From a virus, in the IMG/VR virus record IMGVR_UViG_3300037840_000263, positions 1 to 26,812 of that record: a stretch of 26,812 nt of DNA. One strand, 5' to 3'. Below the pieces are notes generated by a model. That model worked only from the letters and a program-made list of their open reading frames with translations. It did not search any database and was not told where the DNA came from. Below, one piece after another: positions 13,375-26,045 of this stretch. Every line of letters begins with the position of its first letter. Position 1 is the stretch's first letter. A program made the position numbers and the translations under genes.

Positions 13375-13623
13375 GTGATAATTGATCTATTAACCCTGAA
13401 CGGCGTGGTTGATGTATTCGTACGGCGTGATGGGTCCGTCCTCAACGTGCATGTCGTGCTTGACGATCTGGAGTTTTCAAAGTTTGAGAAGGTTATCCAA
13501 AAAGAGCTGGAACTGACAGAGAAATTTCCACACTTGCGGTTCCGATTCAATGTGTCTCCGAAACTCGAAGCCGCGCCTTGGGTCCATGCCCTTTTGCCAA
13601 CGTCGGAAATGGGCCACGCCTGA
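13375..13623 (+). CDS. small alpha/beta protein, unknown
   Basis: 82 aa from a GTG at 13375 preceded by GGAGGA (13365-13370). A TTG at 13363 is an alternative. The sequence alternates strands and a helix: VIIDLLTLNGVVDVFVRRDG, SVLNVHVVLDDL, then FSKFEKVIQKELELTEKF, and a final strand LRFRFNV. This looks like a compact two-layer fold. There are no Cys or catalytic motifs. An overlapping - strand frame is judged a shadow. Function unknown. Confidence 0.45.
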   Translation: MIIDLLTLNGVVDVFVRRDGSVLNVHVVLDDLEFSKFEKVIQKELELTEKFPHLRFRFNVSPKLEAAPWVHALLPTSEMGHA

Positions 13624-13645
13624 TCAGTTTAGAAAGAGGGAATCG

Positions 13646-13804
13646 ATGAAACTTCTCGCACTGTTCGTTTTCGCCGCGCTCGCCTTCGCCGAAGTTCCTG
13701 ATTGCGCTACCTGCAAGATCAACGTGCCGGAGCCTAGCACATGGGCTTTGATGGCGCTGGGCTTGGGTGGGATTGCGGTGGTGGGGTGGAGGAAGAGGCG
13801 GTAG
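13646..13804 (+). CDS. mini PEP-CTERM protein (exosortase substrate)
   Basis: 52 aa made almost only of two sorting signals. The first is a Sec signal peptide (MKLLALFVFAALAFAE). The second is a complete PEP-CTERM tail: VPEPSTW, a membrane segment (ALMALGLGGIAVVGW) and the basic end RKRR. Between them lie about ten residues with a CATC pair. In bacteria PEP-CTERM proteins are recognised and cleaved by the membrane protease-transpeptidase exosortase (EpsH/XrtA family) and are linked to exopolysaccharide and biofilm formation. No exosortase is seen here, so the host must supply it. The ATG has a GAGGG ribosome site. The protein is remarkably short, and a phage-borne copy is unusual. Confidence 0.75.
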   Translation: MKLLALFVFAALAFAEVPDCATCKINVPEPSTWALMALGLGGIAVVGWRKRR

Positions 13805-15734: not shown

Positions 15735-16219
15735 AACTCGCTTCCTTGCTCCTCCTCTCCTCCTACGCCTTTGCTCAGTCCCCGCCTGCGCCTGCAAGTG
15801 CGCCGCTTCAAAACTGGGCCGGCCTCGGCACGCAATACGGCACCTCCGACTCGCCACACTTCTCGGGATGGGCTGCTCTCGCCCTGCCGCTGTCACAGTC
15901 CCAGTCGATCTACAGCTATACGGAATACATGGCGATTCCGGTCAAGGGCAAGCCTCCAACTACATCGACCACCACTGGCCTGGCAACAATTCTCCGCACC
16001 ATCCACATCGGCGACAAGACGCTCTACATCCTTGGGCTGGCGACGGCCGGCGCTGCGGTATCCAGCACGGCGACCACGGGATCGTTCCAGGGCGGGGGCG
16101 GAGCGTTCCTGCGTTGGACGAGCGGTTTTACGGTTGAGGTGGTGGTGCAGCAGTCCAAAGCGGCTGGGCCGGCGAAGCCGGAAGTGCTCGCTGGGGTAGG
16201 GTTCGCTTGGGGGAAATAA
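15731..16219 (+). CDS. secreted beta-rich protein (possible small outer-membrane barrel)
   Basis: 162 aa with a signal peptide (MKLASLLLLSSYAFAQ) and a Pro/Ala linker. A series of alternating hydrophobic strands follows: GWAALALPLSQSQSIYSYTE, TLYILGLATAGAAV, GGGAFLRWTSGFTVEVVV, and a C-terminal EVLAGVGFAWGK. Strand density and the Gly/aromatic pattern would fit a small outer-membrane beta-barrel or an exported beta-sandwich. A final aromatic residue, usual in barrels, is missing. Both ends overlap neighbours (ATGA, TAATG), tying it to the lipase that follows. Confidence 0.5.
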   Translation: MKLASLLLLSSYAFAQSPPAPASAPLQNWAGLGTQYGTSDSPHFSGWAALALPLSQSQSIYSYTEYMAIPVKGKPPTTSTTTGLATILRTIHIGDKTLYILGLATAGAAVSSTATTGSFQGGGGAFLRWTSGFTVEVVVQQSKAAGPAKPEVLAGVGFAWGK

Positions 16220-16920
16220 TGCTCAAGGATTCTGAGATCGCCCAGCTCGCTCACCAAATATACGTCGGTCCTGTCGGGTTCACAAAATACTTCGCCGAAG
16301 AAGGTTTCGGCATCTGCTGCGCGGTCCTGCTCAACCCGGATGAGAATATTGTTGTGTTCAGAGGCACCGTGCCGACCGAACTTCAGAACTGGATTCAGGA
16401 TCTTTTAGCATACCCTGCTCCGTACAAACACCAAACCTTTGGGCCGATCCATCTGGGTGCATTCTGCGGCCTGCCGAATGTGATGGAGGAGATAGTCCCG
16501 CTGCTCAACTTGGCCGTCAAGACCACATTCTGCGGCCATTCTCTCGGGTCGCAGCGTGCGGCGCTCGCCGGCGCAATCATGCTCGATGAATACCAGCCTG
16601 ATCCATCGCTGATCCGCGTTGTCGGCATGGCTGGGCCTGCTCCTGGATTCGACCAGTTCCTTCAGTTCATGTCAAAAGTGGAATGGCGGAATTATAGAAA
16701 CGCGGCCGGTGTATACGGAGATCCTGTCCCGCTTTTAGCCTTTAACCTTCCGCCAGCGTTCGCGTACAAAAACATCGGACTGACGCACGTAACCGCGCAG
16801 CCTGGTGGGTTCTTGGACCTGAAAGACGCCCTGCTCGTGGACTGGCACAATAGTTCTCTGTATGTGAAGGGTGTAGCGGCCCTCGAAGCAGCCACACCGG
16901 TACACGGAAAGGTAGGGTAG
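16219..16920 (+). CDS. class 3 lipase-like alpha/beta hydrolase
   Basis: 233 aa with the hallmarks of a class 3 lipase. VVFRGT (about residue 45) forms the oxyanion region. GHSLG has the nucleophile Ser108 and is followed by the helix SQRAALAGAI. GDPVP supplies the acid (Asp168), and DWHNSSLY supplies a His in the usual place (His210). These enzymes hydrolyse ester bonds of acylglycerols or phospholipids. No signal peptide is present, so it would need lysis or a holin to reach the envelope. It is coupled to the secreted beta-rich protein by TAATG. In a phage it could help break the outer membrane or act on host lipids. Lipase fold confident; substrate unknown. Confidence 0.8.
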   Translation: MLKDSEIAQLAHQIYVGPVGFTKYFAEEGFGICCAVLLNPDENIVVFRGTVPTELQNWIQDLLAYPAPYKHQTFGPIHLGAFCGLPNVMEEIVPLLNLAVKTTFCGHSLGSQRAALAGAIMLDEYQPDPSLIRVVGMAGPAPGFDQFLQFMSKVEWRNYRNAAGVYGDPVPLLAFNLPPAFAYKNIGLTHVTAQPGGFLDLKDALLVDWHNSSLYVKGVAALEAATPVHGKVG

Positions 16921-17514: not shown

Positions 17515-17886
17515 ATGATTTACTACAGCCAGTCGAAAGTACTTTTCACTCTGCCGGATGGGAGTACATCCCCCGCTCTTTATGCAGGCAATGGCCAATG
17601 GAAGAATGACCCAGCCTCTCAGTGCGTCACGAACCACGGACCCTTGCCGCAAGGCATCTACACGATGCTCCCTATCCAAGTACTTCCACATTTGGGGCCA
17701 GCCATCGTCCTAATCCCGAATCCGGGGAACTCCATGTGCGGACGTGGTGGCTTTAGGATTCACGGCATAGACACAGCGTTTCCACTTGACTCTTCCCTCG
17801 GCTGTATCTGCGATGAACCGTCCCCTCGCCAGCTTTTGAATAGCTGGATTCTCAAAGGCGAGAATCAGCTTACAGTGATAGCTTAG
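17515..17886 (+). CDS. DUF2778/Tlde1-like L,D-transpeptidase-fold enzyme (possible peptidoglycan-active protein)
   Basis: 123 aa. The order of motifs fits the DUF2778 family. The start has an LPDGS...YAGNGQWKNDPA stretch, followed by HGPLPQGIYT and IPNPGNSMCGRGGFRIHG (His83). The SSLGCI motif (Cys97) comes later. In this family, which includes the secreted effector Tlde1, His and Cys form the active site, and the enzymes cut or exchange peptide cross-links of peptidoglycan. No signal peptide or membrane segment is visible. It has its own promoter and sits right before the terminase, so a lysis or cell-wall-entry role is plausible but unproven. Confidence 0.65.
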   Translation: MIYYSQSKVLFTLPDGSTSPALYAGNGQWKNDPASQCVTNHGPLPQGIYTMLPIQVLPHLGPAIVLIPNPGNSMCGRGGFRIHGIDTAFPLDSSLGCICDEPSPRQLLNSWILKGENQLTVIA

Positions 17887-22276: not shown

Positions 22277-22465
22277 TTAGGTCCTACGCCGCTTCCCGCC
22301 TTCTGTCTGTTTTGGCAACGCGATCTCCAGTAACCTAAGCACTGCCGCTGCCCGCGATTCAATCCGATGGTCAAAGCGCCAGTTATCCACCCGTTCCAGC
22401 AGTACGCGCGGGATCTGGAAATGCAGGAAACTTTTGCCGCCAACCTCTTTGACTGTTTGCTCCAT
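22277..22465 (-). CDS. ribbon-helix-helix DNA-binding regulator
   Basis: 62 aa from the ATG at 22465-22463, preceded by GAGGT. The first half gives the beta strand of an RHH fold (SFLHFQIPRVLLERVDNWRF). The second gives DHRIESRAAAVLRLLEIAL, the usual second helix of CopG/Arc-like proteins, and a basic tail. Such proteins dimerise and bind short palindromes. It is antisense to the surrounding head genes and has its own promoter overlapping a perfect palindrome (22622-22637). It probably regulates itself and the divergent 211-aa gene. Its last codons overlap a copy of the GTAGGWCCTAC repeat. Confidence 0.65.
   Translation of the reverse strand: MEQTVKEVGGKSFLHFQIPRVLLERVDNWRFDHRIESRAAAVLRLLEIALPKQTEGGKRRRT
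22278..22287. repeat. dispersed palindrome GTAGGWCCTAC, copy 5 (first base altered)
   Basis: TAGGTCCTAC followed by GCC. The base before is T instead of G. It makes up the last codons and stop of the RHH gene on the - strand (R-R-T-stop). Confidence 0.6.
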
Positions 22466-22476
22466 GTATTTAGGTA

Positions 22477-22601
22477 CCTCACCAAACCGCACCGAACCCC
22501 ACCGTAGCTAACCTAACCGAACCTCGCACAACCGGGCCGAATCTTGCCTAGCCTCACCCGACCTATCCCGACCCAGCCTTGCCGTAGCAAACCGTGCCTG
22601 T
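22477..22601 (-). repeat. pentamer-periodic array (left), 25 units of NNNGG on the - strand
   Basis: Read on the + strand, 125 bases divide exactly into 25 units of five: CCTCA, CCAAA, CCGCA, CCGAA, CCCCA, CCGTA and so on. Twenty-one begin with CC, and C is at position 2 in 24 of 25, while the other bases vary freely. On the - strand this is NNNGG, running from the predicted transcription start of the RHH gene to just before its ribosome site. It is neither an exact tandem repeat nor a coding pattern. Confidence 0.8.
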
Positions 22602-22608
22602 AATAAGA

Positions 22609-22637
22609 AGTATAATAGGTATTGACAGTACTGTCAA
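22609..22637 (-). promoter_or_regulatory. promoter for the RHH gene with overlapping perfect palindrome operator
   Basis: TTGACAGTACTGTCAA (22622-22637) is a perfect 16-bp palindrome. Read on the - strand, its first six bases are a consensus -35. TATACT (22614-22609) lies at exactly 17 bases spacing. Transcription would start near 22602, so the leader is the pentamer array. On the + strand the same palindrome gives a TTGACA ahead of the 211-aa gene, with only a weak extended -10 (TGCTACCTT). A binding site for the RHH protein is the natural guess. Confidence 0.6.
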
Positions 22638-22673
22638 CCCCATGCTACCTTCTATACCAGAGGTATTAACGGT

Positions 22674-23309
22674 ATGGCAAAATCAGCCGCTCAAAAGGTC
22701 ACCGTTCTCAGTCCCGTTTCTAACGAAGCTGAGAATCTTATCAACTATGAACAACCTTACATCGCCGCTATCGATGTGGTCGGCGCTTCCGCCCTCCTGT
22801 TTCATCGATGGAGCGTGGATGGGGTTGAGGCTAAGTCCAAAGCCGCTAAGGGCAGCAAGGCGAAGAAGACAGACGATCTCGACACCTACGTGTACCGGGA
22901 CGCGGACGGCTATCTCGCGATCCCCGGCGAGTATTTCCGCATGTCGATCATCAACGCAGCCAAGTTCAAGCAGGACCCGCGCTCTCCGCGCAAATCCGCC
23001 ATGGACCTGTTCAAGGCCGGACTCACCGTGCTGGACGAAGTCTGCTCGCTTGGGGTCAAGGATTGGGATTACGTGGATCGCCGCCGGGTCGTCATCCAGC
23101 GTAGCGCCATCACCCGCGCCCGCCCTGCGATGAACGAAGGCTGGAAGGTGCAGGTCTCTCTCGGCGTCCTGCTGCCTGAGTACATCTCGCCTGCGTTGCT
23201 GAATGAGGTAATCCAGTTGTCCGGGCGACTGGTTGGGGTAGGTGACTTTCGCCCGACCTATGGGCGGTTCCAGGTGGTTGGGTACAACACGACAGAGTTT
23301 GCGGGCTAA
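22674..23309 (+). CDS. conserved phage hypothetical protein of 211 aa, flanked by pentamer arrays
   Basis: The sequence belongs to a family seen widely in phages, as I recall it: NYEQPYIAAIDVVGASALLF, then KKTDDLDTYVYRDADGYLAI and IPGEYFRMSIINAAKFKQDP. RSPRKSAMDLFK, DRRRVVIQRSAITRARPA and the end RLVGVGDFRPTYGRFQV follow. No catalytic motif is visible, and the biochemical role is not known to me. It is soluble, with a Lys/Ala-rich insert (AKSKAAKGSKAKK). The ATG has AGAGGT nine bases upstream. It is divergent from the RHH gene and separates the portal from the protease, so it looks like cargo of an accessory cassette. Confidence 0.65.
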   Translation: MAKSAAQKVTVLSPVSNEAENLINYEQPYIAAIDVVGASALLFHRWSVDGVEAKSKAAKGSKAKKTDDLDTYVYRDADGYLAIPGEYFRMSIINAAKFKQDPRSPRKSAMDLFKAGLTVLDEVCSLGVKDWDYVDRRRVVIQRSAITRARPAMNEGWKVQVSLGVLLPEYISPALLNEVIQLSGRLVGVGDFRPTYGRFQVVGYNTTEFAG

Positions 23310-23435
23310 TTTTCAGAGGTAGTCTATGGTGAGGTTCGACAGTGTATGGTCAGGTTAGGTAAGCCTCGGTTTGGCTTGCTCCGGTGATTGTCGGGTGCCG
23401 TATGTTGTGGTGTTCTATGGCTTGGTGCGGCAGGG

Positions 23436-23496
23436 GCCTTATGAGGCAACCATTTTAGTAGGTCCTACAAAGGTGAGAATGGTTACCTGATAAGGT
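23436..23496 (+). ncRNA. hairpin 1 of a two-copy structured element
   Basis: Outer stem GCCTTAT/ATAAGGT, a G.G mismatch, then AGG/CCT, a C.A mismatch, and inner stem AACCATT/AATGGTT (23448-23454 with 23478-23484). The loop of 23 bases contains a GTAGGTCCTAC palindrome. Hairpin 2 has the same plan with changed but still paired bases, which suggests a selected structure in RNA or single-stranded DNA. Confidence 0.55.
23458..23468. repeat. dispersed palindrome GTAGGWCCTAC, copy 6
   Basis: GTAGGTCCTAC followed by AAA, in the loop of hairpin 1. Hairpin 2 has only a six-base loop (TTAGCT), and hairpin 1 begins its loop with TTAG, so the palindrome may have been inserted there. Confidence 0.65.
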
Positions 23497-23582
23497 GAGG
23501 CTCGGTCGGCCTTGGTATGGTGCTGTATGCAATGGTGTTGTGTGGTAAGCATCGGCTTGGCAAGGCAGGATAAGGTATGGGC

Positions 23583-23630
23583 ACTTTATGAGGCAGCCGC
23601 TCTTTAGCTAGAGCGGTTACTTGATAAGGT
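23583..23630 (+). ncRNA. hairpin 2 of a two-copy structured element
   Basis: Outer stem ACTTTAT/ATAAGGT, the same G.G mismatch, AGG/CTT (one G.T pair), the same C.A mismatch, then inner stem AGCCGCTCT/AGAGCGGTT (23595-23603 with 23610-23618), loop TTAGCT. Compared with hairpin 1, the inner stem is wholly different in sequence but still pairs. Confidence 0.55.
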
Positions 23631-23771
23631 TCGGTCAGGTAGGGCTCGCTAAGGCAGTGCGCCGGTTGGGTGTGGCACGGTCCGGTCCGGTGGGCTGAGG
23701 CTTGTCACGGTTTGCTGTGGTATGGTCTTCTAAATCGTTGACCACTTGATTTGTGTTACCATCCTGCTCAG

Positions 23772-26045
23772 ATGAAGTCTCATCTGGCACATCTCAGTCA
23801 ACTGGCTTTCAACTCTCCGCTGGCAATCTTGCCGTCTCATGCGGAGACTGTTTTATCCGCTCTAGGTCCCCGGCTTGCCATTGACACAGACGGCCTCGCC
23901 GAATTACTTAAATCAGGCGTTCTGTCCGCTGATGGTCAATTCTACTCCTGGGACCAGAACGCTCCCAAGCAACTGCAATCCGGTGACAATGAAAAGCCTT
24001 ACGTACTTACCGAAAGCGGCATAGCCGTTGTTGACATTGTCGGTACGTTGATGGAGTCCGGCGGTTGGTTGAGCGCTTTATCTGGTTGTAGTTCCTACGA
24101 AGGCATCCGGGCGGCGGTAGATTGCGCGATGGATGACCCAGATGTGCGTGGTATCTTGTTTAGTATCAACAGCCCAGGCGGATCGACGCACGGACTTTTT
24201 GACTTGACGGATCACCTCTACTCCCTCCGTGGCCAGAAACCGACTTGCGCCGTCGCCAAAAACTGCGCCGCTTCCGCCGCCTACGCTATCGCCTCCTGCG
24301 CCGATAACATCTGGCTCACCCGCACCGCCGGCGTCGGCAGCATCGGCGTATTCGCCCTGCACACCGACCAATCTGGGGCAGACAAGAAAGAAGGGATGGC
24401 GTATAAGTACGTCAAATCCCGGCGTAAGAAGACAGACGGCAATCCGCACGAGCCTCTGTCCAAATCCGCCGAGGCCGACATGCAGGCAGAGGTTGACCGG
24501 CAGGATGGCTTGTTCGTCTCGCTCGCCGCCCGCAACCGGGGCGTGTCGCAATCTGAGATCGGGGACCTTGAAGCAGCCATGTTATTCGCCGACTCCGCCG
24601 TCCCCCTGCTGGCCGACTATGTAGGCACCTTCGAGGACGCCATCGCCGCTATCACTGGACAAGTGACTGGGGATCGTGATAGTCTACTTTCAACAAGTAG
24701 TAACAAAGGCTCAAGGCGCGGTAAAGGCCAAGGCCGATTAAAGGCAAGCACACAAGAAGCAGCAGCAGATGGCCAGGAAACTGGTGAAGAGTTAGAGGAT
24801 GCTGATAACGTGATGCCTGCAATCCCGCCTCACAAAACGAAGACCTCATCCGCTGCCTGGGACGGGCCGGAGAACAAGAAGCGTCTTAGCAAAGGCAAGG
24901 ATGCGGCCTACTACCGGTCGGCATATGCGTTCGTGAAGCCGGATGGCGACCCCAAGGTTAAGGCCAGTTACACGTTCATCCACCACGAGGTCGGGGCGAA
25001 TGGCGACGTGGGTGCCGCCAATATCAAGGGCTGTCAATCCGGCATTGCGATCTTGAATGGCGGGCGCACCGGCACAGTATTGAAAGGTGCCGACCGCAAG
25101 GGCACGTATCGACATTTAAGTGCCCATTTGGAAGATGCTGGCGAGACGCCCTCGCCCCTGAAGAGTTACAAGACTTACCTTGCTGGCGTAGTGGCCTACG
25201 CCGCCGAAACTGAGAACCAACCTCTGGCTGCTCAAGCCAGTTCCATCCTCGCCGCTTTGCAAGTAGCGGATGAAAATTCCTCTGATGATGAAGGAGATTC
25301 TGCCATGGCTAAGATCCTCGACCTAGACGCCGTCAAGCCCGACGAAAAAGACGATGACAAGAAAGAGGCCAAAGGTGGCAAGAAGGGCGATGGCTACATG
25401 AAGGGTAAGGGCAAGGAAGAGGACGAAGAGGAAGACGACGAGGAAGACGACGAGGACGAGGACAAGAAGAAAGCCTCGGCCAAAAAAGAAGACAAAGAAA
25501 ACGACGAGGGAGATGACAAGGAAGACGAAGAGGATGAAGACGACGAAGAGGACGAAGACAAGAAGAAGGCTACTAAAGGCAAGGGCAGCAAGAAAGGGAA
25601 ACGGGCCGACGTGACACAGATCACTGTTGACGGCCGCGCCGAATCTCAGGCTATTGCCGAACTCTGCACCCTCGCCGGCTGCCCGGAGAAAGCCGCCAAG
25701 TACATCCTCGACGGACGCTCTGCCTCCCAGGTCCGCAAGTTCCTGATGGACAAGCGTGCCCGCGCCTCCATGGAATCTACCGTGGACGCCAGTTTCGGCC
25801 TGCCCGCCGGCGGCGACAACCCGGCCCTCAAAATCTTCCAGCAGGCGCGGGTGTCGGTCGCCCAGAACAAGGACCTGCCGCCGTCCGCTGCCTTTGAAGC
25901 TGCCATCCGCCAGAACCCGGCCCTTTACGAAGCGGCCCGCGACATGCGGGAGACCGCCGCGCTGACCACCAACAACCGCCGTCAGTACGCCTCCATCTGC
26001 CGGTCGCAGTTTGCCGCGATGGGGCTCTCGGTCGGCGGACAGTAA
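23772..26045 (+). CDS. prohead protease (S49/SppA family) fused to a WDG-type domain and a scaffold-like region
   Basis: 757 aa from the ATG at 23772; a TTG at 23751 is an alternative. Residues about 85-300 are an S49 protease as in lambda gpC: ILFSINSPGGSTHGLFDLTD, then NCAASAAYAIAS with the likely nucleophile Ser168, then AGVGSIGVF. The Lys region VKSRRKKTDGNPHEPLS contains the probable partner of the Ser-Lys dyad. A second domain (about 355-480; SSAAWDGPENKKRL ... YRHLSAHLEDAGETPSPLKS) resembles the C-terminal domain attached to many prohead proteases. The last third is a very acidic D/E/K stretch and a helical end. These enzymes cut scaffold and capsid proteins during head maturation. A nested start lies inside (see 25305). 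Confidence 0.82.
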   Translation: MKSHLAHLSQLAFNSPLAILPSHAETVLSALGPRLAIDTDGLAELLKSGVLSADGQFYSWDQNAPKQLQSGDNEKPYVLTESGIAVVDIVGTLMESGGWLSALSGCSSYEGIRAAVDCAMDDPDVRGILFSINSPGGSTHGLFDLTDHLYSLRGQKPTCAVAKNCAASAAYAIASCADNIWLTRTAGVGSIGVFALHTDQSGADKKEGMAYKYVKSRRKKTDGNPHEPLSKSAEADMQAEVDRQDGLFVSLAARNRGVSQSEIGDLEAAMLFADSAVPLLADYVGTFEDAIAAITGQVTGDRDSLLSTSSNKGSRRGKGQGRLKASTQEAAADGQETGEELEDADNVMPAIPPHKTKTSSAAWDGPENKKRLSKGKDAAYYRSAYAFVKPDGDPKVKASYTFIHHEVGANGDVGAANIKGCQSGIAILNGGRTGTVLKGADRKGTYRHLSAHLEDAGETPSPLKSYKTYLAGVVAYAAETENQPLAAQASSILAALQVADENSSDDEGDSAMAKILDLDAVKPDEKDDDKKEAKGGKKGDGYMKGKGKEEDEEEDDEEDDEDEDKKKASAKKEDKENDEGDDKEDEEDEDDEEDEDKKKATKGKGSKKGKRADVTQITVDGRAESQAIAELCTLAGCPEKAAKYILDGRSASQVRKFLMDKRARASMESTVDASFGLPAGGDNPALKIFQQARVSVAQNKDLPPSAAFEAAIRQNPALYEAARDMRETAALTTNNRRQYASICRSQFAAMGLSVGGQ
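25305..26045 (+). CDS. nested in-frame scaffold protein (lambda Nu3-like arrangement)
   Basis: An ATG at 25305 lies in the frame of the protease gene and has a textbook ribosome site (AAGGAG at 25291-25296, 8 bases upstream). That is much better than the one of the full gene. It would give a 246-aa protein: a short lead MAKILDLDAVKPDEK, about 85 residues of D/E/K low complexity, then a helical C-terminal part (AELCTLAGCPEKAAKYILDG and later AFEAAIRQNPALYEAARDMR). In lambda the scaffold Nu3 is made from an internal start in gene C in just this way. The arrangement here is inferred from sequence. Confidence 0.65.
   Translation: MAKILDLDAVKPDEKDDDKKEAKGGKKGDGYMKGKGKEEDEEEDDEEDDEDEDKKKASAKKEDKENDEGDDKEDEEDEDDEEDEDKKKATKGKGSKKGKRADVTQITVDGRAESQAIAELCTLAGCPEKAAKYILDGRSASQVRKFLMDKRARASMESTVDASFGLPAGGDNPALKIFQQARVSVAQNKDLPPSAAFEAAIRQNPALYEAARDMRETAALTTNNRRQYASICRSQFAAMGLSVGGQ

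Follow-up and report, generated by a model that had tools for sequence, protein, structure and literature searches.

VIPR (Viral Interference Programmable Repeat) is a CRISPR-like phage weapon described in a 2026 preprint (PMC13142463). Its protein, Vipr, is a minimal RAMP homologue with an RRM core and a G-loop that has been proposed to be older than CRISPR, and VIPR loci of phages and prophages carry long intergenic repeat RNAs that flank the vipr gene (PMC13142463). These vrRNAs consist of 9-16 tandem YNNGG units, with conserved GGY and hypervariable NN, and end in a structured, conserved 3' tail; the NN doublets read the target with one base skipped between doublets, and a vipr-accessory (vap) gene is a further feature of the system (PMC13142463). 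For the type II systems of Escherichia phage SUSP1 and a Pseudomonas fulva prophage, vrRNA expression, a Vipr ribonucleoprotein, dsDNA binding and transcriptional repression were shown, and the natural targets reported were mostly perfect and foreign (PMC13142463). The window analysed here, a stretch of 26,812 nt, is a phage record of IMG/VR that encodes a terminase, a portal and a protease. It resembles these type II systems in having a Vipr RAMP protein, YNNGG vrRNAs flanking vipr on either side, a 1-nt skip code and competing phages as targets. It differs in that its Vipr belongs to another clade and that the guides of this clade aim at alleles of flanking genes, not at satellites or lysogeny switches. 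We are highly confident that this is a VIPR locus, in which a 211-aa Vipr is accompanied by four YNNGG arrays serving as guide RNAs aimed at relatives' alleles of flanking genes.

The 211-aa protein is encoded on the + strand between the arrays (22674-23309). A profile of 79 homologues matched PDB 36pp, the SUSP1 Vipr, at E=4.5e-40 as the sole strong match to a solved protein, and the window protein on its own aligned only weakly with SUSP1 Vipr. All 79 family members matched phrog_4652 (function unknown), and a glycine-rich segment, GxGDxRPxxGRF, is kept across the Vipr alignment, where 38 close homologues share 49-68% identity with the window protein and the remaining 40 share 17-27%. An AlphaFold2 model (pLDDT 89) had Cas7 and Csm3 as its top matches in structure searches (Foldseek E about 1e-7; VIA Z 12.8). 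Profile and predicted structure thus identify the protein as a Vipr, a single-domain Cas7-like RAMP, and by this identification the flanking YNNGG arrays are vrRNAs of a VIPR system. The first-pass annotation had noticed the arrays in the raw sequence and knew no named element of this form, a statement that is out of date, as the element corresponds to the vrRNA of VIPR (PMC13142463, 2026).

The left array (22477-22601, - strand) consists of 25 YNNGG units in a single 5-nt register with GG in 21/25, the same counts as annotated before, and is backed by the unit parser, shuffles and comparison across the clade. In this array 17 of 26 CC dinucleotides form lag-5 pairs (shuffles: mean 5.0, maximum 11), and 22 of 57 GG do so in the right stretch (23325-23725; mean 7.7, maximum 18), so that the autocorrelation proposed earlier as a check exceeds every one of 2,000 dinucleotide-preserving shuffles for both. 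A unit parser tolerating 1-nt slips recovered 25 units at 80 bits, 22 units at 41 bits and two more tracts at 57 bits joined, compared with two arrays in all, the best at 20 bits, in 20 mononucleotide block-shuffles of the whole window. The opposite orientation of the arrays around one gene is as first described. The YNNGG units of the right stretch are likewise real, but instead of four blocks they form three arrays split by two hairpins: R1 (23325-23435, 22 units, one 1-nt slip), R2 (23491-23580, 18 units) and R3 (23630-23725, 19 units, one 1-nt slip), all on the + strand. Two of five bases had been called as kept; GG is indeed fixed and NN variable, but Y is fixed too, giving a fixed GGY and two hypervariable N. 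The earlier judgement that the arrays are not slippage was right.

All four arrays, with 18 (R2), 19 (R3), 22 (R1) and 25 (left) units, are longer than the published 9-16; in clade relatives with targets, pairing is confined to the 5' 13-16 units and does not extend to the last few before the tail. The + strand tails of R1 (23438-23494, MFE -18.6, z -2.1) and R2 (23586-23627, MFE -19.5, z -3.6) fold into hairpins that have the same outer stem and differ in the inner one by compensated changes (CAACCATT/AATGGTTACC vs CAGCCGCTC/GAGCGGTTACT), and R3 and the left array are without this common tail. Rfam searches of the window, at the gathering and at a lax threshold, identified no known RNA, hammerheads included. 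Repeat finders returned only short or degenerate repeats in the window, and near-identical repeats split by spacers of the CRISPR type were absent. Class 1 CRISPR effectors, with their Cas7/Csm3 backbones, share the RAMP fold, oligomerisation on a guide RNA and periodically broken pairing with the window system, which differs from them in lacking CRISPR repeats and spacers, in its pentamer units with two informative bases and in a break at every third target base.

Upstream of the left array, which starts about 8 nt past it, lies a sigma-70-like promoter (TTGACA-17-TATACT, 22609-22637, - strand) matching 11/12 consensus positions. A perfect 16-bp palindrome, TTGACAGTACTGTCAA (22622-22637), overlaps the -35 element between the divergent ribbon-helix-helix (RHH) and vipr genes and, judged by its sequence, is likely an operator. 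The left array itself is directly upstream of the gene for a 62-aa RHH-like repressor (22280-22465, - strand; phrog_4738 'transcriptional repressor', E=2.4e-7), which is possibly accessory (vap) or unrelated. Among clade loci this gene recurs only in the closest relative, L124, and it was rejected as a conserved vap of the clade; no conserved accessory gene was found across the clade loci. Elsewhere in the window we observed a small phage protein with a PEP-CTERM-like sorting signal at its end (VPEPSTWALMALGLGGIAVVGWRKRR; 13550-13804), a possible host clue, a class 3 lipase-like ORF (16219-16917) and a Tlde1-domain protein (17515-17883; Pfam E=1e-12) adjoining the large terminase.

The association between arrays and vipr extends well beyond this phage. 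A DNA-only scan of IMG/VR for GG(NNNGG)7 yielded at least 120 loci, and a Vipr homologue is encoded in 64/120 among the matches listed, with the protein playing no part in the scan. Most loci among these 120 listed matches are degenerate YNNGG arrays; poly-G and perfect tandem repeat loci among them were set aside as unrelated noise. In the reverse search, 30 of 34 loci found by protein have arrays beside the gene, and a more sensitive parser yielded arrays in three of the four remaining relatives. The first-pass annotation had tied the arrays to the 211-aa gene and named array-less homologues as the contrary outcome; the reverse was found. Array length in the window's Vipr clade ranges from 9 to 312 units, and a few arrays are CRISPR-array-like in size (312 units in L115, listed together with L304, and 131 in L327). 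Arrays of an Alicyclobacillus subgroup have conserved 3' tails. In L009, L131, L135 and L160, arrays stop where a terminator-like hairpin with a T run lies or where the next gene starts. The vrRNA 3' end in the window's clade may be set by termination and not by a pseudoknot tail.

The published NN code with a one-base skip holds in the window's Vipr clade, as read from the composition of the units and their matches. Across 3,597 clade units, the mutual information within the NN doublet was 0.0174 bits, compared with 0.0021 at unit junctions and a null of about 0.0018; such a bias within NN and none across junctions means that NN was copied as a contiguous doublet, with successive doublets taken from non-adjacent positions of the source. 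When arrays were compared with their own ±1.5 kb at a score of at least 13, a skip of one base gave 13 real matches against 1.7 in shuffled and 1.0 in other-locus controls, and skips of 0, 2, 3 and 4 gave 2, 3, 1 and 1, equal to expectation. In the cross-targeting network, six guides reached 29.8, 23.8, 23.6, 23.6, 19.4 and 19.4 with skip 1 against a shuffled maximum of 15.6, and the top scores with other skips were 12.0-13.8. An initial all-against-all comparison seeded with 5 and 6 units gave only a modest skip-1 excess (40 real vs 21 ± 6 shuffled at scores of at least 16). A codon-phase rotation test of the skip rule was dropped because order-shuffled units gave an equal advantage.

These matches also bear on the functions that had been suggested for the arrays, namely a leader RNA, a protein-binding lattice at half a helical turn or a recombination substrate, the last of which found no support. 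Clade arrays are frequently adjacent to a promoter, terminator or start codon, which would suit protein-binding lattices of DNA or leader RNA that are not guides, either as a half-turn DNA lattice or through attenuation resembling that by TRAP. TRAP is a ring protein that binds (G/U)AG RNA triplets spaced roughly 5 nt. That the variable NN match targets only under the skip-1 code strongly disfavours such lattices, Vipr homologues bind vrRNA and dsDNA targets (PMC13142463), and the window protein is predicted to have a RAMP fold, which speaks against the TRAP type, so that we regard this explanation as highly improbable. What stands of the lattice idea is a protein lattice in 5-base register, since in VIPR the Vipr subunits assemble on the RNA; the lattice lies on an RNA guide and not on DNA at half a helical turn.

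Within the window, the clearest guide is R3. With doublets read as codons NNx, its antisense decodes to [IM]T[KN]V[KN]SPGGVT[HQ]GL[FL][DE]L[CW][DE], where the 5' 15 units correspond to the active-site peptide of an S49 head maturation protease. The next gene downstream (23772-26045, + strand; phrog_53 E=1.1e-88, Peptidase_S49) encodes such a protease with LFSINSPGGSTHGLFDLTD at 24156, the phage's own allele of the R3 target site being codons 24168-24212 (NSPGGSTHGLFDLTD). This protease is fused to a long acidic, lysine-rich low-complexity region (about 25400-25570), possibly a scaffold. Against the window proteome R3 scored 75, and none of 1,000 unit shuffles exceeded 56 (z about 10). For this score, the 1-nt slip allowed two parses, and the better one supplied the NN of one unit, chosen after the match had been seen; the untuned parse scored 69 vs 49-54 in four shuffles. 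The own allele agrees with R3 in 11/19 units and 26/38 bases, with Ser TC/AG and Leu CT/TT differing, as would be the case for a guide whose real target is the allele of a relative.

The left array, R1 and R2 had no match to any neighbour gene in the window proteome. Exact 8-unit patterns of the four arrays gave 4, 11, 24 and 45 chance matches in viral contigs, none of which extends, and the 9-unit R3 pattern gave 0. The left guide had no target in 40 related records and its decoded peptides no tblastn match in phages, and peptide patterns retrieved no close relatives of the window protease from viral contigs; in the collections searched, there was no natural or perfect target for any window guide. 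This absence of a perfect target, together with right arrays that violate GGY more often than those of many relatives (41 bits over 22 units), might indicate a degenerate remnant in which vipr persists beside decayed, non-functional arrays. We consider this unlikely given that the left array retains GG in 21/25 units, a perfect register and an 11/12 promoter, that vipr is open and conserved, and that R3 still decodes to a recognisable active-site peptide.

Guides of relatives display the same preference for neighbouring genes. Scored by log-odds at 24 bits or more, clade guides gave 21 matches to proteins of their own contig vs 2.0 and 2.2 expected, a count that is approximate because some lower-scoring matches fall in doubtful GC-rich frames; earlier permissive scoring did not separate from shuffles. 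All 21 lie within 1 kb of the array, at a median distance of 253 bp compared with 2,359 bp in shuffles, and in other Vipr clades the excess is weak or absent (3 vs 1.0 and 1.4). The neighbour genes decoded include TerL, exonucleases, Sak4, 5'-3' exonuclease/RecT, a virion protein and the major capsid protein. The doublets of one guide (L304) read VYG[IM][HQ]G[IM]GKST[FL], a Walker A motif. This guide fits Walker A sites, in frame, in both L036 and L033, and fits the Sak4 gene of its own locus, at a distance of 92 bp, less well. Decoding of the L158 guide gives [IM]AV[DE][KN]V[DE]P[FL]R[CW]GV[CW]RV, a motif of exonuclease VIII/DUF3799; the exonuclease encoded beside it reads IGVEKIEPYRAGSWR, and IAVEKIEPFRCGVWRV, which matches the guide at 31/32 bases, occurs in genomes of the same class. 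Sites with at most 3/30 mismatches to this guide numbered 28 in 19/397 genomes, the best with 1 mismatch, and a reversed-pattern control gave 0.

The L159 guide, from the order of Alicyclobacillus, matches the homologous neighbour gene at two places in genome G005 (2/28 mismatches). Targeting is reciprocal, since a guide located at one of these places (L319) in turn matches this gene in L159, on the opposite strand; at the second place, a guide (L318) has its match in the L159 vipr gene. A profile search of G005 found no vipr, although the L318 and L319 arrays with their conserved tail are present; they may be orphan guides borrowing a rival's Vipr. A different unit window of the L159 guide had no target in 41 Alicyclobacillus-family genomes. 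Near-perfect natural targets were thus found for the guides of both L158 and L159, clade members with named hosts.

The main rival to competitor targeting is autoregulation, where guides would regulate the phage's own adjacent genes and mismatches would be tolerated or reflect drift. Many guides do match their own flanking genes best, and R3 is located just upstream of the protease gene in the window. However, own matches are imperfect, mostly covering 50-80% of units, as with R3, and autoregulation is disfavoured for this reason. Relatives can match far better, as with the L158 guide (31/32 bases in L320 vs 23/30 in its own gene) and the L159 guide (13/14 vs 9/14 units), and the natural targets of PMC13142463 are mostly perfect and foreign. 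We therefore hold autoregulation to be very unlikely.

Under competitor targeting, one Vipr subunit per 5-nt unit, a stoichiometry we infer, would hold GGY and present the NN doublet, and successive doublets would pair with dsDNA with one target base skipped between them. Guide binding would then repress the target gene, in line with the ribonucleoprotein, dsDNA binding and repression reported in PMC13142463. For guides of the clade, the targets would be the alleles of the VIPR-flanking genes that related phages or prophages carry. R3 would accordingly silence the S49 head protease of a co-infecting relative, presuming that the locus is expressed and active and that a competitor with the R3 target exists, and the phage's own protease copy would be spared by differing at enough NN positions. 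The window guides probably mismatch the phage's own copy of an essential gene and repress its equivalent in close competitors. Across the clade, we consider it likely that VIPR acts by allelic exclusion of its neighbourhood: vrRNAs would encode competitors' alleles of essential genes beside vipr (terminase, exonuclease, Sak4, capsid, protease), in many cases at conserved motifs and with self mismatched, related prophages would target each other reciprocally, and a vipr-less genome would carry arrays, one matching a rival's vipr. In logic, this resembles homing endonucleases, which also act on the related allele of the element's own site and spare the carrier, but VIPR is RNA-guided and represses rather than cleaves, and there is no evidence of copying into the target.

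A raw-sequence oddity in an uncultivated phage has thus been identified as a VIPR guide array and its locus as a new VIPR member. The noncontiguous code was re-derived in a clade about 20% identical to SUSP1-like Viprs, with no use of the experimental systems. The neighbour-allele rule is absent from the main text of PMC13142463, and we do not claim priority for it. As proposed, the rule would make targets predictable from the locus itself and suggests how self is avoided, and it is relevant to how new guides could arise in systems that lack an adaptation machinery. If allelic exclusion is true, it would bring a programmable, homing-like logic to inter-phage conflict.
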